Shown here in pieces: positions 27,568 to 37,548 of a DNA stretch of 64,000 nt (position 1 is the first letter of the stretch; the number at the start of each line of letters is the position of its first letter). This DNA comes from Nocardia crassostreae. GTDB lineage: Bacteria; Actinomycetota; Actinomycetes; Mycobacteriales; Mycobacteriaceae. The stretch spans positions 124,001-188,000 of the forward strand of contig NZ_BDCH01000028.1 of NCBI RefSeq assembly GCF_001613405.1, read 5' to 3'. Both the position numbers and the translations under genes were made by a program. The notes under the pieces were generated by a model. It was not told the DNA's origin. It worked only from the letters and a program-made list of their open reading frames with translations, and searched no databases.

Positions 27568-27765
27568 CTACTCCTTGTGTTTGCGCGGGGACAGCACCAG
27601 GACGATTCCGACAATGATGGAGGCGACGACCACGATCCAGCCGAAGGACAGTCCGCCCGATACCGGCCAGGACGGTCCGATGAAGGCCCAGACGTTCACG
27701 GCCAGGCCGAGCAGGCCCGCGAGCAACAGGGAGAAGGACGGTCGGCGAGTCTTCTTGTCAGCCAC
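27568..27765 (-). CDS. small membrane protein, 65 aa
   Basis: Two predicted membrane helices (SLLLAGLLGLAVNVWAFIG and FGWIVVVASIIVGIVLVL) with basic ends (KKTRR, PRKHKE). GTG 27765 overlaps the last 8 nt of the PspC/LiaF-like gene, so the two are co-translated. A small two-helix protein beside PspC genes is common in this order; the function is unknown, possibly a membrane-stress partner. Confidence 0.75.
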   Translation of the reverse strand: MADKKTRRPSFSLLLAGLLGLAVNVWAFIGPSWPVSGGLSFGWIVVVASIIVGIVLVLSPRKHKE

Positions 27766-29497
27766 GGTTCACCTCGGCGGATCCCATCTGGACATTGACG
27801 GTCAGGTTGAGGACGGGGCCGGTGGCGGGACCGGACATTCCGTTCACGCAGTTCGAATCACCCATGCGCACAGTGCAGGTGGTGTTCACGCGCAGGTTCT
27901 CCGGCAGCAGCACCCGGGCATCGCCCATGCGCACGGTCAACTCCACCGAGCGATCGGCGTCCAGTGTCAGATTGCGCAGATCGAGCGTGCCGGAGCCCAT
28001 GGTCATGTGGTAGGCGGGTAGCAGTTCCGCGCCGGTGGCCGCCTGCCAGGACTGATCGCCCATGGCGCCGCGATCGAATTCGATCGGGCCGATGAGGGAG
28101 GACAGGATCACGAAACCGGCCAGCGGGGCCAGGATCACCATGAGGCCGTAACCGCGGCGCAGGAAGGCGCCGATGATGAGGCCGAGCCCGACCACCGCCA
28201 GGGCGGCCGCGCCGATCCGGCCCGGCGTCATCCAGTCCACGCCGGAGGCGGCCGCCGAACCCGCCGCCGCGGCGGCCAGCAGGGCGAAGCCGATGATCAC
28301 CGGCGTGAAGCGGGAGCGCGGGCGGCGCGTGGGCGCCGGTACCGGATGCTGCGAGGTGGCCGGGGCGGGTTCGGGCAGGTCCCACGCCATCGGGGCGACA
28401 CCCAGCGGATCCCAGCCCGGCGGGGTCGGACCGAACTCCGGGGATATCGGGGCCGGGCCATAGGCGGCGTACGGGCGTTCGCCGGTGGGTGGAATGCGGT
28501 GCAAGACAGGGGGTTTATCGCTCAGCGGGGTGAGATCCCGAGGGGCCGCGAGCTGCTCGGTCTCGGCATCCGGCGATTCGGGGTCGTCCGGCTCGGATGC
28601 GGTGGCGGCGGCCGGAGCGGCGGACCCGGCCTTGACGAGTGAGGTGGCGGCGGCCGGGACATCCTCGCCCGCACCGGATTCCGAATCCTGCGCGACCGGC
28701 TCCTTGCGGAGCACTGCCGTCGCGGTATCGGAATCGCCAATGGATGGTGGAGTATCGGGTTTCTGCAGCACGACGGTCTCCTGTACATCGCTGTCGGCAG
28801 CCGCCGTCTCGTTCGCGCTCGGCGGCACAGGCGGAACGCTCTGCTGCGCAAGCACTTCGGTCGGAGCCTCGGCGGTGCGCCGCGATTCCGGGTCCGGCTC
28901 GTAGTGATCCGGCAGCTTGGTGTACGGACCGTAGGTTTCGAACGGCGCGGTGGTGCCCGGATATCCGGTCCAGTAAGGCGAATTGGCGATCGGGTAACCC
29001 GTGACGAGCGGGTCACCCGCATAGCCGAGATATCCGGCGGGCGGCTGCGGCTGCCGCTGATGCAGCAGCCACCATCCGGCCAGCATGAGCAGCATGCTGA
29101 TGGCTCCGGACCCACCGAGCCCGACCCCGACCGGTCCCATCGTGCTCACGGCGATCCCCAACGCCACCATGAGCACGATGGTCTTCGACGAGTGCTGCGA
29201 ACTCTGCCCCTTGCCGAAGAGGGACTCCGCGGCTGAAGTCCGATCCCCCTCCTGACTCAACAGCAGCCACGCCAGCAGATAGAGCACGATCCCGGCCCCG
29301 CCGAACAGCGCCGACACCACGAACGCGACCCGCACCAGCACCGGATCCACGTCGTACCGGCGCCCGAACCCGGCGGCCACCCCCGCGATCGGACCCTGAT
29401 GCGGCAACCGCACCGGCCGAGTCCGCCACATGTCATGAACCTGGTCCGCGAACCTGGCACGCCCGGTGCCCGTGGACCCGTCGCTCGTTCTCGTCAT
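27758..29497 (-). CDS. PspC-domain / LiaF-like envelope-stress protein
   Basis: A 579-aa membrane protein. A PspC domain at about residues 35-85 (GPIAGVAAGFGRRYDVDPVLVRVAFVV, LYLLAWLLL) is followed by further helices, a long acidic Pro/Thr/Ala-rich cytoplasmic region, four more helices at about 415-500, and a C-terminal beta domain with repeated VRMGDARVLLPE / VRMGDSNC motifs, like the LiaF / DUF2154 sensor domain. ATG 29497 is the likely start, but one 3 codons earlier is possible. In related genomes such genes sit beside a PspC-kinase and LuxR regulator, here found 6 kb away at 35494-37548. Confidence 0.85.
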   Translation of the reverse strand: MTRTSDGSTGTGRARFADQVHDMWRTRPVRLPHQGPIAGVAAGFGRRYDVDPVLVRVAFVVSALFGGAGIVLYLLAWLLLSQEGDRTSAAESLFGKGQSSQHSSKTIVLMVALGIAVSTMGPVGVGLGGSGAISMLLMLAGWWLLHQRQPQPPAGYLGYAGDPLVTGYPIANSPYWTGYPGTTAPFETYGPYTKLPDHYEPDPESRRTAEAPTEVLAQQSVPPVPPSANETAAADSDVQETVVLQKPDTPPSIGDSDTATAVLRKEPVAQDSESGAGEDVPAAATSLVKAGSAAPAAATASEPDDPESPDAETEQLAAPRDLTPLSDKPPVLHRIPPTGERPYAAYGPAPISPEFGPTPPGWDPLGVAPMAWDLPEPAPATSQHPVPAPTRRPRSRFTPVIIGFALLAAAAAGSAAASGVDWMTPGRIGAAALAVVGLGLIIGAFLRRGYGLMVILAPLAGFVILSSLIGPIEFDRGAMGDQSWQAATGAELLPAYHMTMGSGTLDLRNLTLDADRSVELTVRMGDARVLLPENLRVNTTCTVRMGDSNCVNGMSGPATGPVLNLTVNVQMGSAEVNRG

Positions 29498-29578
29498 GAC
29501 CTCCATCGTGGCGGCGCACACTCCCCGGCCGCATCGGGGATCACCCTGAATCGGCACCTGAAGTTGGCGGGCGCGAGA

Positions 29579-32500
29579 TCAGTTGCAGGGCGGATCGAAG
29601 GGGAACTGCGGGAGGTAGCGCCGCCACAGTTCTTCGGTCCACATGTTCCCGGTGACGGCGCAGATGCGGTCTGCGGCATGCTGTTCATCCCAGTCCCACA
29701 AGCGAATTGCGCCCGCGACACTGGCTCCGGCCGCGAACCGGCCGCTGGGATGGAAGGCCAGGCTCCAGGACCCGTCGGGTTCGATCAACGGGCCGTTGAT
29801 CGGTCGCGGCGCGGCCGAGTCCGAGAAATCCCAGCGCTGCACGGCCCCGTCCAGATCCGATGTCAACACGGTTCGACTGTCGGGGGCGAACCGAAATGTC
29901 ACGATCCGCCGCGTGTTCATCGCGATCGGATCGCCGAGCGCGATCGGTTCGGCCGGATCGCTGATATCCCAGCTCTGCACCATCTCACCGTCGATGACGG
30001 CCATGGTCCGGTGATCGGGGGAGAATTCCGCCCGCCCCGGCACGCCGATCCCCGGTGCACGCAGCAGTTCGGCCACCTTGCGCGGGCGGTTCGGGATGGT
30101 CAGTTCCCACCGGCTGACGATGAGTGTTGGTTCGCGTCCAGTGTCGTAGCTCCATTCCTGTGTGAAGAGCGTCCGGCTGTCGGAGCCGAAACTCTGCTCC
30201 GCCATCGTTGTTCCGAGCTTCGCCTCGATATCGATCGGTACCGGACGGGACGGATCCGAAAAATCCCAGAGCCGAAGACTGCCGTCGAATGCGCGACCGA
30301 CGAGCAATCGCCAGTCCGGGCTGACCCGCACCCCTAGACTGACCGGAAGCGACCATTCGGCGAACTGGCGAATACGCGCGGGATCGGATAAATCTAATAT
30401 CCGGCCGACGACTTCGGTGCGATGGGTCGCAATGAACATTAGGTAGCGCCCGTCCGGTGACAGCGCCGAGCCGTAATGATATGGCGGCAGCTGAAACTCA
30501 CCGCCACGCCGAGGCGCCAGCGGATCGCGGAGGTCCCATACTGTGATCCGCCCGTCCGCGGATTGAGTCACCAGACGCTCACCCGTGGCATCGAACAGGG
30601 GCGCCGCCACGTCCCCGGCGTGTCCGTTGAGTATCGACGGCGGCAGTGACCAGGTTCGAATCTCACCTCCGCCTCCGGCGGCCAGCAGCGTGCGGTCGTC
30701 CGAGGTGAATACCGCGGTGTGGGAAAGGCCCGCGCAGGGATATTCGGATCTACCGTCGCGACACGTCGACGAGCTGACCGACAACTCGTTCGTGACAAGT
30801 GTCGGAAACTCAGGCTCGGCGATGTTCCACAGAGAGATGCCTTCGCTACCGGCAATCGCCAGTACCCGCCCGCTCGGGCTGAATGTCAGCGAGTTCGCTT
30901 CGAGCGAGCCGGTGTCGAGCGATGCGCCGAGTTTGCGCGGAGCCGCGGGCGCGGTGACGTCCCAGAGGTTGACGACCGCTCTGTCGTTATTGATTTTCCT
31001 TGTCGCGTCCGACAGGGTGGCGGCGAGTGTTCTGCCGTCGGGGCTGAAAGCCAGATCGGTCACCACGCCGTTGATTCCGGCGATCCGGGTCAGGGGTACA
31101 AGGGTGGTGTCCGCCGCTATTTCGAATAGTTCGACGGCATTACCCAGGATTAGTTCGCCGCTATCGCCGTAGGTGCGGAGGACAGCCAACAGCCGCCCAT
31201 CGGGACTGGCCGCGAGAAGCGGGAGGGGGATACCGAGGGGTTCGTTCCGATAGAGCTGGTACCTCGCCCCGGCCGCTGGTGCTGCCGGATCGCTGAGATC
31301 CCACAGGGTCACATGTGTTCCGTCCATCACGGCGAGAGTCCGGCCATTGCCGACGAACGCCGCCCGCACCAGCCGCCAGGAGTTCTCCGTGGAAACGGTT
31401 CCCAGTTTGCGAGGGGCGGCAAGGTCGCGCACATCCCAGATCTGCGTGCTCATCCGCTCCGACTGGGAGGCTATCTCTCCGGTGGCCATCAGGGTGCGGT
31501 CGCGGCTGAAGGAGACGTAATCGGTATCGGGGATGAATCGGCCCAGTTGCCGCGGTCGGTATGGGTCCTGGACGTCCCACAGACCCAGCTCGCTGCCCTT
31601 GTCGATTGTCGCGAGGATGCCGTCGGCCGGGTAGGTCATATGCGAAATATCCACGGCATGAACGGGATTGGCTCGCATCAGCGGGAGCCCCTGCGTCCGC
31701 AAGAGCCGGGAATTCACGCCCTCGTCCCGCGGATGTAGTCCCCGCGCGACCAGGTACAGCTGTGCGGCCAGCGACGGGTCGGTCGGGCGCAGCTGATCGG
31801 CGGTGGCGAGCAGCGCGGTGAAGTTCCGGTCGTCGCGTCGCTGCTGGGCCAGTTCCGTTTGGGTATAGGCCGCGAAGCTGAGGGCCAATAGCGCCGCACC
31901 CAGCAGGGCCAGTACCGCCCTTGCCTGGGCCGAGCGGCGGCGCGTTCGGGTGCGAGCCGTGGTCGCGGCGGTGAGGAAGTCGGCGGCAACAGGGCCGACC
32001 GGGGGGCGGATTCGCGTTGTCGAGGGCGGTGCGCAGTCGAGTACCGCGGTACAGGAGCGACGAATCGCGGTCCTGGGCAGCCCATTCCGCGGCGTCGGTT
32101 TCCAGGCGCTGGCGAACCAGGTAGCCGACGCGGTCCTCGTCTATCCAGGTGCGCAGGCGAGGCCAGGCGGTGAGGACTATTTCGTGGGTGAGGGTGACGG
32201 CGTCGGCGTCGAGGGTGATGAGGCGGGTGCGGGCCAGTAGTTCCAGTGCGGCGGTGGCGTCTTCGGGGGCGGCGTTGCGGCGCAGAAGGTCCGGGCGTTG
32301 GGCGATGCGGCGGGTGTCGTGGGAGTCCTGGCCGACGGTGACGAGCCCGAGCAGGATTTCCTTGGCGGCGGCCTGCTGAGTGGAAGACAGTTCGGTCCAG
32401 GCGTGCTCGGCGGTTTCGGCGACCGAGCCGACCACGCCGCCCGCCTTGCGGTAGCCGGTGATGGTGAGGCGGCGCCCTTCCCGGTGCTGCCAGGTGGCGG

Positions 32501-33683
32501 CCATGACGTGGGAGAGCAGGGGGAGGGCGCCCGGGTCGTAGGTGCGGCGGCCGGGATGGCCGCCCGCACCGCACAATTCGGTGATCACCAGCTCTTCGAG
32601 GCCGGATTCCAGGTCCAGGCCGACCGCGCGGGCCGGGCACGAGATCGCTTGCGCCAGTTCGTCCGTGCGCATGGGGCCGAGCAGGTAGGCGCGGTGTTCG
32701 AGCGCCTCCTGGAGGATCAGGTAGTTCAGGCAGTGGGCGTAGAAGTCGGCGCGCAGGGCGATGACGACGGTGATCGGATCGTCGGTGCGGGTGGCGCAGC
32801 GGTCCAGGGCGGTGAGGAAGTCCTCGCGGGCGCGCTCGTCGGCGCAGGCGGTGAAGAGCTCCTCGAACTGATCGATGATCAGCAGGCGGCGGGGTAGATC
32901 CCGGCGCGGGGCCAGCGCGCTGAGCGTATCCGCCGGTGTCGGCTCGGACGCCGCCGGTCGGCCCGGCACGGCGCCGGAGTCGGGCACGGTGCCAGGGTTG
33001 GAAGAGCTTGCGGGCGTGTCCTGGTCCGTCGAGCCGGATTCTTGTTCGGTGCTGGGCGTGGGACGGGTCGCGTTCAGGAGCGCGCGGAGGGGGTGGCGGC
33101 CGGGGGTGAGGGTGATGATCTCGCGATCGTCGAAGGCCGGGGTGAGGCCTGCTGCCAGTAGGGAGGACTTTCCGGCTCCGGAGGCTCCGACCACGGCGAC
33201 TATGCCGGTGGCGTCGTGGACCAGGGCGGTGAGTTCGGTGGTGGCGCGGGTGCGGCCGAAGAAGAGGGACCGGTTGTGCGGGCGGTAGGAGTTCAGGCCC
33301 GGGTAGGGGCAGGCGGCGTCGGCTTCGTCCTCGGGATTCCAGGTGGTGGCGGCTTGCCAGAGGCGTTGCCATTCGCGGGGTTCGGCGAGTTCTCGGGTGA
33401 GTGGGCGGCCGGATTTGCGGGCCAGGTCCGCCAGGGTGAGGACGACCGGTAGTAGGGATTCGAAGCGGGCAGGGACATTTCGGCCCGCTTTCCAGTCGCT
33501 GATGCGCTGGGCGGACGCGCCGCCCGGGCGGGTGCCCTGGGCGGCGCGCATACGGGTTTCGGCGGCCGCGGCCACGCGACGCAGGGTCGGGTTGCCCGCT
33601 GCTTCATAGAGTTCGGTGAAGCGGATGGTGAAAAGTGCGCGCGGTGAACGGGTTTGCTCCCCCGTGGTGATGTCCCCCGTCAC
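29579..33683 (-). pseudogene. HTH - STAND NTPase - WD40 protein, interrupted by a 1-nt frameshift
   Basis: The frame from GTG 33683 encodes an XRE-like HTH (AQRISDWKAGRNVP), a STAND/AAA NTPase with Walker A VVGASGAGKSSLLAAG and Walker B RRLLIIDQFEELF, a winged-helix part (LTHEIVLTAWPRL) and ends its sense at DNANPPP. A run of six G (32001-32006, forward) carries one base too many. Past it the sense continues in another frame as a membrane helix (AVLALLGAALLALSFAAY) and about ten WD40-like blades marked LWDxxDPxxP. The restored protein is about 1,365 aa: cytoplasmic signalling NTPase, one helix, and a propeller after it. TACAGG lies 7 nt before the GTG. Family members act in signalling or immunity; the ligand is unknown. 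Confidence 0.82.
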
Positions 33684-33817
33684 GATCGGCCCTGTATTCG
33701 ATTGTTCCCCTCCGGCATGGGGATAACCTATCGGCCCGGTCCGCGGATTGCCGGGGCGGCGGCCGAACAATTCGCCCAGCCGCCGACCGGCATCGAGACC
33801 GCCTCTGCGAGAGCAGA

Positions 33818-34465
33818 TCACAGCACCACCGGGTCGCCGATGACCCAATCCGCCGCATCCGTCTCGGGCGAGGTGGCCTCGATGATCGTGTACGCCTGCA
33901 CCGTCAGCGGACCGCCGCAGCCTTCGACGGTGAGGCGGTAGTCCCGATTGACGATGTAGCCGCTGCCGCCCGGCGGCAGCTCCTTCTCCGCCAGCGCGAT
34001 ATCGGTGATCTTGCCGGGCGTGATCGCCAGGTCGAAGCCGATGCCCGCACCGAAACGCGGGCTGATATCGGCGCTCGCCATCGGGGTCACGCCGGTGATA
34101 TCCACGCCGACACCGATATTGGCGCCGATATCGATGCCGATATCGGCGTCGATGCTGAAGGTGACGTCCAGATCGACGGCGCAGGCCACGAAGTAGCCGG
34201 TGCGGATGGTGCCGGTGCCGCCGGTGACCGTTCCGTAGGACGTGTTGTCCAGGTACACCTCTCGGCTGGTCGGCATTCCGTTCAACGGTGCGACCGGGCG
34301 GGCCGCATTGTTCGTGTGGCCGACGGTGACGACCATGCCGTTGGGCGCGTCCAGGGTCTTCTCGTGCGGTGCCAGCGCCCAGGCGTCGGCGGTGGCGGCG
34401 AACGGTGCGCCTGCTATCAGTCCCGCCGCGGTGACGGCGGCGGCGAGAGCGGTCTTGCTGATCAT
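33818..34465 (-). CDS. MspA-family porin / secreted protein
   Basis: A 215-aa exported protein. Signal peptide: MISKTALAAAVTAAGLIAG ending near ADA. The mature part has the MspA-family pattern found in Nocardia: YLDNTSYGTVTGGTGTIRTGY, a central stretch of alternating IDADIGIDIGANIGVGVDITG strands, PGKITDIALAEKEL, GYIVNRDYRLTVEGCGGP and a terminal GDPVVL. MspA proteins form channels in the mycolate outer membrane. It ends 134 nt before the STAND gene on the same strand; its promoter region carries the twin palindromes described below. Confidence 0.82.
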   Translation of the reverse strand: MISKTALAAAVTAAGLIAGAPFAATADAWALAPHEKTLDAPNGMVVTVGHTNNAARPVAPLNGMPTSREVYLDNTSYGTVTGGTGTIRTGYFVACAVDLDVTFSIDADIGIDIGANIGVGVDITGVTPMASADISPRFGAGIGFDLAITPGKITDIALAEKELPPGGSGYIVNRDYRLTVEGCGGPLTVQAYTIIEATSPETDAADWVIGDPVVL

Positions 34466-34650
34466 GGGTGGTTCCTCCCCGAACCTCTATGCGAACCGCT
34501 GCGGTAGCGGCCTCGATGAGAAAGGTAGGGACGGCGCCGGGGTCCGGCCGAGTGTGCAAGCGGCCGGAGCACGGCGAATCCGCTGATGGGAGGGGGTGCC
34601 GCCGGATTTCCGGTCCGGTCGGGCCGGATTCGGGGTGGGCCGGGCCTGCC

Positions 34651-34663
34651 GTCCGGTCCGGAC
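34651..34663. promoter_or_regulatory. candidate TetR operator 1
   Basis: GTCCGG-T-CCGGAC, a perfect 13-nt palindrome. Flanking A on the right (GACA) mirrors the second copy at 34734. Confidence 0.55.
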
Positions 34664-34733
34664 AGGCCGGATGCGTGACCGGATTCGGCCGATATCCGCA
34701 CGGTGCGACTGCCGTGCAGGTCAGGTCAGGTTT

Positions 34734-34750
34734 TTGTCCGGACCGGACAA
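34734..34750. promoter_or_regulatory. candidate TetR operator 2
   Basis: TTGTCCGG-A-CCGGACAA, a perfect 17-nt palindrome 50 nt before the TetR start, with the same 13-nt core as operator 1, 85 nt away. This is the typical placement for TetR autoregulation; operator 1 is nearer the porin side. Confidence 0.65.
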
Positions 34751-34800
34751 GCGCGCCCGCGTAATGCCCTGGGCGGCTGTCCAGTCAGTACAGTTTCGGT

Positions 34801-35409
34801 GTGCCGACCCAGCGGGAACGACGTGAGGCGACCATTGCCAAGCTGCTCGACGCGAGTATCGCGACCATCGACGAGATCGGGTACTCGCGTGCCTCGGTGA
34901 AAACCATCGCCACGCGGGCGGGGCTGTCGTACGGGGCGCTGTTCCGGCACTTTCCGACCATGAGCGACTTCATGGCCGCCACCGCGCGGGAGGCGGTGCG
35001 GCGGCAGATGGAGGCCGTGGCCACACGTTTCCTCGAACTGACGGCCGCGGGCGGAAGCACCGATATCGGCAATGGATTCCGGGTGCTGCGCGAAGTGTCC
35101 GGGACTCCGGCGTATCACGCCATTCTGGAACTCACCATGGCCGCGCGCACGGATCTGTTCCTGCGCAGCGCGATGCAGCAGGCCATGCTCGACACGGTCC
35201 CGCTCATGATCGGGCTGCTGCGCGAAGTGTCCGGGCGCGAACTGGATCTCACCGACGAGGACCTGGTGGCGCTCACCTTCCTCGTCGCCGACGTCTTCGA
35301 CAGCGAGGTCTTCCAGCATCCGCTGCGCGAGCATCATCCGGAGATCAGCGAACGCCGGATTCCGGTGATGACGCGAATGCTCGGACAGTTCCGGCGGGCC
35401 GTCGAGTAG
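34801..35409 (+). CDS. TetR-family transcriptional regulator
   Basis: A 202-aa repressor. HTH: ATIAKLLDASIATIDEIGYSRAS, VKTIATRAGLSYGALFRHF. The C-terminal ligand domain is all-helical. GTG 34801 follows TACAGT by 6 nt. It is divergent from the porin gene and flanked by twin palindromes, so it probably represses itself and perhaps the porin. It lies upstream of, but apparently unrelated to, the PspC kinase. Confidence 0.88.
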   Translation: MPTQRERREATIAKLLDASIATIDEIGYSRASVKTIATRAGLSYGALFRHFPTMSDFMAATAREAVRRQMEAVATRFLELTAAGGSTDIGNGFRVLREVSGTPAYHAILELTMAARTDLFLRSAMQQAMLDTVPLMIGLLREVSGRELDLTDEDLVALTFLVADVFDSEVFQHPLREHHPEISERRIPVMTRMLGQFRRAVE

Positions 35410-35493
35410 CGATGTGTTCCCCGTCCGCATCAGGGACGGAATCGGGGTTGTACCTGATGCCGCCGGTCGGGGTGGCGTGCCAGTATCGAAGGC

Positions 35494-36804
35494 ATGTATC
35501 CGTCTGCGCCCTTCATGGACCCTGCCCGCGGGGTGGCCGTGCCGCCGCCGCGGTTGGCACGGCGGTCCGGGGGGCGGGTCGTGGGCGGGGTGGCCGGTGG
35601 GGTGGCCGACCATTTCGGCATCGACGCGTTCAAGGTGCGGATGGCGTTCGTGCTGCTGTCCGCGCTGGCGGGGGCCGGGATCGTCGCCTACGGCCTGTTG
35701 TGGATCTTCACGCCGAGCGGTGAGGACAAGGCCGCGCCGTCGGCGGCCGAGCGGCGGCAGGCCTTCGGGCTGGCGCTGCTCGGGTTGTCGCTGGCGGTGG
35801 CCACGGCGTGGTTGTTCAACGGATCGGCCGCGCATGTGGTGGGGCCGATCATCGTGGTGGCCATCGGTGCGGCGCTGGTGTGGCGCGAATTCGACGCGGA
35901 GGGGCCGCGGTCGGTGTTCGGACTGCCGGCGCGGCCGTCGGTGGTCACCTGGGCGCGGATCGTCGGCGGGGCGACGCTCATCGTGGTCGGGCTGGGTGTG
36001 GTGGTGCTGGCGCGCATCGATCTGAGTTCGCTGGGGTCGGCGCTGCTGGCCGTGGCGGTCACCTTGATCGGGGCCGGGCTGCTCACCGTGCCGCTGTGGT
36101 TGCGCATGGTGCGGGCGCTGAACGATGAGCGGGCGGCACGGATCCGGAACGAGGAGCGCGAGGAGATCGCCTCGCATCTGCACGATTCGGTGCTGCAGAC
36201 CCTCGCGTTGATCCAGCGCCAGGCCGAGGATCCGCAGGAAGTGGTGCGGCTGGCGCGCAGTCAGGAACGCGAGCTACGCAAATGGCTGTTCGACGACACC
36301 GGCCCGGCGCAATCCAGCCTGGCGGCGGCGCTGCGCACCATTGCCGGTGAGGTGGAGGATCAGCACGGGGTGAAGGTGACGCCGGTGACCGTGGGCGATG
36401 TGTCCATGGATATCGACGACAGCGGAACCGGCCTGCCCAAGGAACATTTCACCGCCCTACTGGGCGCGAGCCGCGAAGCCCTGGTCAATGCGGCCAAGCA
36501 CGCCGGGGTGCCGTCCATCGACCTGTTCGCCGAGGCCGAACCGCACCTGGTGAGCATTTTCGTCCGCGACCGCGGCAAGGGCTTCGACCCGAACGCCGTC
36601 GACGACGACCGCCAGGGCCTGGCCAGATCCATCCGCGCCCGCATCGAACGCCGCGGCGGCCACGTGGAAATCCAATCCGCCCCCGGCCGCGGCACCGAGG
36701 TCCGAATCACCATGCCGCGCAAGGACGGCGCCGACGACCGGATCGTGGTGCAGCAGGACGAACCGGCGGCCCCGCTGGCCGAGGAATCGTCGTTGCCGAG
36801 CTGA
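35494..36804 (+). CDS. PspC-domain sensor histidine kinase
   Basis: A 436-aa kinase. A PspC domain at residues about 20-75 (RVVGGVAGGVADHFGIDAFKVRM) is followed by four or more helices to about residue 210, a HisKA_3-type dimer region with EEIASHLHDSVLQTL (phospho-His) and an HATPase_c domain with REALVNAAKHAG and DRGKGFDPNAV. This is the MacS/LiaS-like type. It pairs with the LuxR-type regulator 102 nt downstream. Envelope stress or cell-wall antibiotics is the usual kind of signal. Confidence 0.9.
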   Translation: MYPSAPFMDPARGVAVPPPRLARRSGGRVVGGVAGGVADHFGIDAFKVRMAFVLLSALAGAGIVAYGLLWIFTPSGEDKAAPSAAERRQAFGLALLGLSLAVATAWLFNGSAAHVVGPIIVVAIGAALVWREFDAEGPRSVFGLPARPSVVTWARIVGGATLIVVGLGVVVLARIDLSSLGSALLAVAVTLIGAGLLTVPLWLRMVRALNDERAARIRNEEREEIASHLHDSVLQTLALIQRQAEDPQEVVRLARSQERELRKWLFDDTGPAQSSLAAALRTIAGEVEDQHGVKVTPVTVGDVSMDIDDSGTGLPKEHFTALLGASREALVNAAKHAGVPSIDLFAEAEPHLVSIFVRDRGKGFDPNAVDDDRQGLARSIRARIERRGGHVEIQSAPGRGTEVRITMPRKDGADDRIVVQQDEPAAPLAEESSLPS

Positions 36805-36906
36805 GCCCGGCCGTGAATGCGCCGCCGCGCGTGCGAGTCCGGGGAACAGGGCGTTGGATGTGGTACCGATGAAGGTGGATTCGGTCCGTCAATCGAGGAG
36901 TCTCAA

Positions 36907-37548
36907 GTGAGTGTCCGGGTGTTTCTGGTCGACGACCATGCCGTGTTCCGGTCCGGGGTGCGGGCCGAGTTGAGCCGGGAATCCGATATGGAAGTGGTCG
37001 GCGAGGCGGGCGGGGTGGCCGAGGCCATTGCCGGGATCAAGGCGACGGCGCCGGATGTGGTGTTGTTGGATGTGCATATGCCCGATGGTGGCGGGGTGGC
37101 GGTTTTGCAGGGTATCGAGTCCGGGCCGGTGTGCTTGGCGCTCAGTGTGTCCGATGCCGCCGAGGATGTGATCGCGGTGATCCGGGCGGGGGCGCGGGGG
37201 TGTGTCACCAAGACCATTTCCGGGCCGGAGCTGGCCGACGGCATACGGCGGGTGTCCGGTGGCGATGCGGTGTTCAGCCCGCGCTTGGCCGGGTTCGTGC
37301 TTGACTCCTTCACGGGCAAGTCTCCGGTGCCGGAGCCGCCGCTCGATCCGGAGCTCGACTCCCTCACGCCGCGCGAGCTCGAGGTGTTGCGCCTCCTCGC
37401 ACGCGGCTACACCTACCGCGAGATCGCCGAATCCCTGTTCATCTCGGTGAAAACCGTGGAAACCCACGCCTCCAACGTGCTGCGCAAGACCCAGCAGTCC
37501 AACCGGAACGCCCTCACTCGCTGGGCGCATCGCCGCCGCATCGACTGA
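36907..37548 (+). CDS. LuxR/NarL-type response regulator
   Basis: A 213-aa regulator: receiver domain (VRVFLVDDHAVFRSGVRAEL, phospho-Asp in VVLLDVHMPDGGG, Lys in VTKTISG) and C-terminal LuxR HTH (LTPRELEVLRLLARGYTYREIAE, ISVKTVETHASNVLRK). GTG 36907 lies behind GAGGAG. It is the partner of the kinase immediately upstream. Confidence 0.93.
   Translation: MSVRVFLVDDHAVFRSGVRAELSRESDMEVVGEAGGVAEAIAGIKATAPDVVLLDVHMPDGGGVAVLQGIESGPVCLALSVSDAAEDVIAVIRAGARGCVTKTISGPELADGIRRVSGGDAVFSPRLAGFVLDSFTGKSPVPEPPLDPELDSLTPRELEVLRLLARGYTYREIAESLFISVKTVETHASNVLRKTQQSNRNALTRWAHRRRID

Follow-up and report, generated by a model that had tools for sequence, protein, structure and literature searches.

In a 64,000-nucleotide window of Nocardia crassostreae DNA (contig NZ_BDCH01000028.1 of a draft genome of 8.29 Mb in 57 contigs), a gene for an MspA-family porin and a gene for a STAND NTPase with WD40 repeats were found between the two halves of an envelope-stress system. 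We lean, at a little better than an even chance, toward the explanation that the STAND protein is a transmembrane transcription regulator, which would sense a signal outside the cell and control its own operon, including the porin gene. This reading comes from sequence comparison and structure models, and it draws on a palindrome ahead of mspA that is shared with sibling STAND genes. A broader proposal is held with clearly less confidence. It states that membrane-spanning STAND transcription factors would form a family in Nocardia and neighboring genera, marked by an N-terminal helix-turn-helix (HTH) domain, a fast-evolving exported WD40 domain and the operator TCCGGWCCGGA. They would be the first STAND proteins known to signal across a membrane, and in one lineage they would have taken charge of an outer-membrane porin.

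The gene order from left to right is guaA (+), a 65-aa open reading frame (ORF) with the PspC gene (-), the two halves of a split STAND gene (-), mspA (-), tetR (+), and a kinase gene with that of a LuxR-type regulator (+), as seen in Table 1. A first-pass annotation of the window had listed a PspC/LiaF-like gene, a WD40 protein, an exported-type MspA, TetR and the kinase/LuxR pair in this order. That description stands, except that the STAND gene is not a single frame here.

A palindrome linked to mspA and the STAND gene

The genomes searched were 118 from the genus, the window's and 117 others. The DNA upstream of the kinase gene was compared in all 116 other genomes with a kinase match (loci L015-L131, with G071 in two pieces), and the 115 loci that carry the PspC gene and the kinase gene on one piece, the window included, were scored. 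G071 (L059, L112) and G100 (L131) were unscorable. STAND and mspA were found together at 24 loci, mspA alone at 19 and neither at 72, so the outcome that the first-pass annotation had named as adverse, the same order in all relatives, does not hold. At the 24 STAND-bearing loci, the order and strand of the pair were always identical.

The 15-bp palindrome TGTCCGGWCCGGACA has one exact copy in the window genome, and the reversed-pattern control has none. With up to one mismatch, it was found in the gap at 23 of the 24 STAND-bearing loci, at 9/19 mspA-only loci and at 1 of the 72 with neither gene. The sole palindrome locus with neither gene belongs to G011, the emptied sister of the filled genome G073. 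In all 23 STAND-bearing loci having it, the palindrome lies within 420 bp upstream of mspA. Its columns are near-invariant and the flanks little conserved, an island that is partly selected since the rows were centered on the best match. The flanking sequence (1.74 Mb) held no exact copy and two one-mismatch copies. Exact copies occur somewhere in 40 of the 118 genomes; those elsewhere, one in each of 16 genomes, lie beside varied genes, with no MspA among them.

The core of the palindrome, TCCGGWCCGGA, recurs ahead of sibling HTH-STAND genes, most of which lie in other surroundings without mspA. It was found within 600 bp upstream of 17/27 siblings (at 55-436 bp ahead of the HTH) compared to 5/929 control ORFs, namely other ORFs of 150 aa or more from the same stretches (Fisher p 2e-25, with the 27 siblings non-independent, as about nine are one clade). 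The siblings include L023, which lies in the same gap on the other strand and has the core, and an L022 copy between guaA and the PspC gene, which lacks it; L166 (no core) and the named duplicates L149-L165 and L183 were left out of the set. Core-bearing siblings span Nocardia and two other genera (L273-L275). The window genome has a paralogue of its own (L271, G000:C19:138000-142000), in which the core stands 197 bp upstream of an HTH domain that is 38% identical. The core was upstream of none of the 58 nSTAND1 genes of other genera in which the HTH-like domain was not found, many of them from other phyla with a different base composition. The window genome contains 29 core sites; the reversed pattern, a control with different dinucleotides, has 2. 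Of the 15 core-site contexts viewed, 11 were inside called genes. These data suggest that the palindrome goes with the STAND gene and that TCCGGWCCGGA is a candidate operator.

The mspA product scored 114.9 bits (E 5e-33) with PF09203, for which the cut-off is 22.9, and has a signal-like N-terminus by eye. Wherever the gap contains an HTH (25 loci, including one relic), mspA is on the same strand as STAND and its stop lies 99-237 bp ahead of the HTH domain. The two genes are predicted to form an operon with mspA first. A tree of the 48 MspA proteins longer than 150 aa from the site separates two kinds (split support 85). A clade of 36 rows holds every STAND-adjacent copy and every palindrome (by the core, 22 adjacent and 10 lone copies), and the other, of 12 rows, has neither STAND nor palindrome. 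A close STAND match elsewhere in the genome was found for 6 of the 10 lone palindrome-bearing mspA genes (one a fragment, in G107) but in only 4/84 other genomes without a site STAND (Fisher p 5e-5, a value that ignores relatedness; matches were counted at E 1e-100, which misses diverged STANDs such as that of G071). This fits a STAND protein that might act on the lone mspA genes in trans.

The descent of the insert bears on whether the two genes work together. In the 115 Nocardia loci, the gap between the PspC and kinase genes is 600 bp or less in 65, and longer gaps occur in 7 of the 72 loci without mspA or STAND. Nine loci hand-picked from six other genera of the same family (L277-L285) all have a short divergent gap, of 113-326 bp by our gene starts, and guaA is labelled in eight of them. 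Because of these two sets of short gaps, the uninterrupted form is probably older and the insert derived within Nocardia. The first-pass annotation was therefore right that the PspC pair is usually close and divergent in relatives and that the insert, with STAND behind the porin gene on one strand, parts it.

In a tree of 41 STAND N-terminal parts, all 25 rows from the site fall within a clade of 28 rows (95/87). A strict clade of the 25 alone was rejected (approximately unbiased test, p 0.0006), since the 28 rows also include two guaA-PspC copies and one copy relocated in G069. On a tree of 106 loci the minimum number of state changes was 13 for STAND and 14 for mspA; with descent in a single lineage, at least this many changes imply many losses. 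By these trees, the site STAND copies are one old lineage that was seated early in Nocardia and repeatedly lost. Relics remain at the site in L100 and L021, and on either side of it the filled genome G073 matches its empty sister G011 at 94% in alignment. Insertion by a mobile element was rejected because the empty G011 junction has 14 unmatched bases and, by eye, no target duplication. A traveling mspA-STAND cassette was rejected as well: in 17 stretches surrounding STAND genes at other places, no called gene was an MspA (in one of these, L140, the gene caller found only two ORFs). There was also no MspA near the six other nSTAND1 loci of the window genome. The pairing is peculiar to one lineage at one site and is not a mobile cassette.

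Another possible explanation, which we consider rather unlikely, is that mspA and STAND are passengers that were co-inherited at a permissive site without working together, and that the palindrome is an ordinary STAND promoter site. A passenger would not be expected to keep its order and strand in 24/24 loci, nor an ordinary STAND promoter site to stay before mspA instead of before STAND, and the palindrome-bearing form of mspA is retained at 10 loci without STAND. Moreover, among nine independent pairs on the species tree, mspA went with STAND in 5.7 on average and against it in 0, with no difference in 3.3 (median p 0.03). What speaks for passengers is that the pairing is confined to one descent at one site, that the same gap hosts other genes, such as a second LuxR-type regulator or the other kind of mspA, and that losses and broken copies are many.

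Three further observations concern the gap. At L040, L045, L051 and L055 it is filled by another LuxR-type regulator and an ORF of about 400 aa, so this is a recurrent insertion place. At L041 (G052), where a lone mspA is followed by 13 unclustered ORFs, it spans 14 kb. At L022 (G069), the PspC gene has STAND-WD40 genes on either side, three in all, and one more copy is found at another place (L132), which amounts to local amplification.

We also think it unlikely that the palindrome is read by a regulator other than STAND, that is, the local TetR, the response regulator of the neighboring stress system or an unlinked factor. Such a reader would account for the palindromes at loci without STAND, and the window tetR starts 51 bp from the palindrome. 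However, no TetR match above 50 bits was found in any other locus examined, and TetR was rejected as the reader because its seven relatives (48-59% identity, in 7/117 other genomes) have no nearby copy with fewer than three mismatches. The first-pass annotation had grouped three genes into a module; with TetR private to this genome at the site and its relatives elsewhere free of the palindrome, the module shrinks to two. The stress-system regulator was rejected since the 59 short gaps without mspA show no excess of degenerate copies over shuffles, except for G011 and one two-mismatch copy. Furthermore, its genes carry a different box, and the core of the palindrome recurs before STAND genes elsewhere.

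Predicted architecture and mechanism of the STAND protein

The STAND protein belongs to the nSTAND1 family, scoring 379.2 bits with PF20703 (cut-off 27.1) and containing the P-loop GASGAGKSS and the motif LLIIDQFEELF. The first half was modeled with a pLDDT of 84.6, and a Foldseek search with it returned plant NLR resistosome and AAA+ chains (76 with an E of at most 0.001). The C-terminal part matches WD40 models and gave no match to GerE, the LuxR-type HTH, so that it lacks the C-terminal HTH of MalT-type regulators.

The N-terminal domain is the most conserved part, with a mean pairwise identity of 0.83 among 22 unbroken copies, compared to 0.68 for nSTAND1 and 0.36 for the WD40 part. Its model reached a pLDDT of 86. 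In VIA structural alignment, most of the top rows were lambda-repressor-like (HigA, DdrO, P22 c2 and lambda cI, at Z 6-7.3), and a profile comparison matched it to the XRE-type (HTH_31-type) N-termini of other nSTAND1 proteins (probability 95, E 2.7e-8). The sole matches of its profile in a PDB sequence search were gp41 coiled coils, which were taken as chance at E 0.009 or worse. On sequence and model, the domain looks DNA-binding and not like an effector.

In 38/38 copies of 900 aa or more, the strongest hydrophobic window around the end of the NTPase, taken as a membrane helix, falls between nSTAND1 and WD40 and follows a net charge of +4 to +8; in 29 of these copies it is the sole segment over 1.6. 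Exactly four cysteines lie beyond the helix in 21/24 site copies, the exceptions being L107 with five and the broken copies L017 and L092. When the copies were aligned, a first cysteine pair was conserved in 24/26 site rows and in 13/13 others and a second in 26/26 and 4/13, where the site rows include one guaA-PspC copy and the window's half. Since the cysteines pair evenly, they fit an exported WD40 domain with disulfides. The predicted order is thus HTH, nSTAND1, membrane helix and an exported, cysteine-paired WD40 domain. Hydropathy, charge bias and paired cysteines all predict that the helix parts the HTH from an outside sensor, and in the window these parts lie in different frames.

The break in the window is at a C-run, where the frame that begins with a GTG and encodes HTH and nSTAND1 diverges from the one that encodes the helix and WD40. 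Relatives have a single open frame across this point with similar residues on both sides, and by gene calls STAND is unbroken in 21 of the 24 STAND-bearing site loci, the exceptions being L017, L092 and the window. Unless a sequencing error has produced the frame change, the gene may be nonfunctional in this genome. Its stop lies 82 bp ahead of the PspC ATG.

If the predictions hold, a lambda-repressor-like HTH and the nSTAND1 NTPase would sit in the cytoplasm, joined by a helix through the membrane to a WD40 propeller outside. The propeller would read a ligand or a change in the envelope and pass the signal to the NTPase, which would switch its assembly or nucleotide state, as in MalT-type STANDs. 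The switch would alter the hold of the HTH on TCCGGWCCGGA before mspA, and this could set the expression of mspA and STAND together, whether up or down. MspA could also be the propeller's partner, because both are predicted to be outside.

Several results weigh against the transmembrane regulator. Pfam assigns no family to the window's N-terminal domain, Foldseek by itself gave no match at E below 3, and its fold matches are middling (Z below 8); the top two VIA rows were MPnS, at the same Z as the repressors, and neuroglobins scored slightly lower. Further hydrophobic segments were seen in 9 of the 38 long copies, of which eight carry them in the HTH/NTPase part and L142 in the WD40 part. On the DNA side, the palindrome is kept at the nine mspA-only loci given above, 4 of the 10 genomes in which a palindrome-bearing mspA stands alone have no STAND match at E 1e-100, and no core lies in the 600 bp upstream of 10 of the 27 siblings, some of which have a similar HTH (L132, L139, L272). 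A second promoter block after the palindrome was dropped as inseparable from background (strict pattern in 7/26 site, 8/29 other and 10/98 background sequences, with the site copy L276 scored as other). Finally, porin and STAND genes are unpaired in the called genes of the 17 stretches elsewhere; together with the six other nSTAND1 loci, this is so far the very outcome that the first-pass annotation had named as adverse to a porin-STAND module.

STAND proteins sense phage in Avs systems, and an antiviral role, with the propeller recognizing a phage protein and the NTPase driving cell death or shutdown, would suit the fast divergence of the WD40 part and the patchy losses, but it is very unlikely given an HTH-like N-terminus in place of an effector, a propeller predicted outside the cytoplasm, and only two weak ATPase fragments from PADLOC on four block proteins (mad3, E 9.5e-5 over 27 residues; mad8, E 7.6e-4 over 39 residues). 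Of the envelope-surveillance or defense module put forward in the first pass, envelope sensing fits the predicted exported WD40 domain and defense is unsupported.

Relation to known systems

STAND switches are known as immune sensors and cytosolic regulators. MalT is cytosolic, with a C-terminal LuxR-type HTH, and ToxR and CadC are examples of transmembrane transcription regulators (TTRs). MalT-type STANDs are described as transcription regulators (PMC4381067, PMC6468293, PMC10427625), and the protein proposed here would likewise couple an NTPase switch to a sensor for transcription control. Unlike in MalT, an XRE-like HTH stands at the N-terminus, and the WD40 sensor would be placed outside by a membrane helix. 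TTRs have their DNA-binding domain and sensor on opposite sides of the membrane (PMC10269533), which is also the predicted layout here, with DNA binding inside, a membrane helix and sensing outside. In contrast to TTRs, a STAND NTPase lies between HTH and membrane, and WD40, NTPase and propeller are absent from the main text of that paper.

Proteins with nSTAND1 are also described in putative conflict systems, with CLec and effector-associated domains (PMC10907252); the window protein has an NTPase of the same family but HTH, membrane helix and WD40 instead. The window MspA shares its family and a signal-like N-terminus with the porins of mycolata (PF09203; PMC9233653). Unlike those, its gene appears to be under a STAND-linked palindrome, and its role as a channel is putative. 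No paper on this STAND architecture or palindrome was found in the open-access literature searched.

If the transmembrane regulator is real, signals from outside would reach a promoter by a new route, a membrane-spanning STAND with its sensor outside and its DNA-binding domain inside, and the porin content of a mycolic-acid envelope would be linked to a dedicated sensor. The candidate operator is short and common to siblings, and with one exact copy in 8.3 Mb it is also rare, so the idea is readily testable.

The Esr-like system around the insert

The kinase beside the insert resembles Cg0707 (CgtS7) of Corynebacterium glutamicum, which we take to be EsrS, with EsrI as its PspC partner and the esr genes presumably near guaA. 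CgtS7 has a PspC domain ahead of HisKA_3 (PMC3353115), and EsrISR combines a PspC-domain kinase with a LuxR-type regulator (PMC9960051). The window has these parts and a PspC protein like the presumed partner, as expected of an EsrISR/LiaFSR-like system; unlike in EsrISR, the halves are parted by mspA and STAND. The two PspC genes are the halves of an EsrISR-like envelope-stress system. Scores fell short of the NCBIfam equivalog cut-offs for LiaS (41 of 450 bits), MacS (109 of 300) and MadR (147 of 300), and the system is therefore labeled Esr-like. The PspC protein matched the LiaF C-terminal model at 16.6 bits, below the cut-off of 29. The PspC gene is present in 118/118 genus genomes and the kinase in 117 (missing in G031). 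Close relatives of the window genome are Nocardia species such as N. jejuensis, N. uniformis, N. otitidiscaviarum and N. acididurans.

Table 1. Positions of the features of the locus, counted from the first letter of the window
Feature	Position	Strand	Remark
guaA	25891-27456	+	
65-aa membrane-like ORF	27568-27765	-	8-bp overlap with PspC gene stop; clustered in 101 loci
EsrI-like PspC protein ("LiaF-like" half)	27758-29497	-	PF04024, 64 bits
Candidate Esr operator ahead of PspC gene	29532-29550	-	matches GGGTNNNNCCNGATG
Split STAND gene, second half	29579-32008	-	membrane helix and WD40 repeats, displaced frame
Membrane helix after basic stretch	31862-31918	-	predicted; N-in, C-out
C-run where the STAND frames part	32001-32006	-	
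Split STAND gene, first half	32004-33683	-	HTH-like domain and nSTAND1 NTPase; PF20703, 379 bits, E 4.3e-113
nSTAND1 domain	32061-33308	-	residues 126-541; PF20703
HTH-like N-terminal domain	33411-33644	-	residues 14-91
mspA-family gene	33818-34465	-	first of predicted operon; PF09203, 115 bits
Second palindrome copy	34650-34664		one mismatch
Palindrome TGTCCGGWCCGGACA	34735-34749		candidate operator; sole exact copy in the 8.29-Mb draft genome
TetR regulator	34801-35409	+	at this site private to the window genome
Candidate Esr operator ahead of kinase gene	35441-35459	+	GGGTNNNNCCNGATG-type box
EsrS-like PspC-domain histidine kinase	35494-36804	+	PF04024 and HATPase_c above cut-off, HisKA_3 below
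EsrR-like LuxR-type response regulator	36817-37548	+	PF00072, PF00196; start may be 36907

Both halves are preceded by a box, GGGTNNNNCCNGATG, whose pattern was drawn by eye from these same loci. With up to one mismatch, it was found before the PspC gene at 108/113 loci, in 107 of them 47-49 bp from the ATG (0.7 expected from shuffles), and before the kinase gene at 66/113, in 61 of them at 49-51 bp (0.9 from shuffles). Of the 24 STAND-bearing loci, all have the box ahead of the PspC gene and 16 have it ahead of the kinase gene; the eight without a kinase-side box within 110 bp may reflect the kinase starts chosen. The window keeps both boxes. The Esr halves here are parted and not broken, each with its candidate operator, and we infer that the box is read by the Esr regulator.

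In G071 the kinase match (L112, L059) ends at residue 298 with an internal stop, and the PspC gene is about 19 kb away; the kinase piece carries an HTH-STAND gene with a core palindrome of its own. The 65-aa ORF had no Pfam match and shows the same 8-bp overlap with the PspC gene in 99/101 loci. It is possible that it is an unnamed further part of the Esr-like system.

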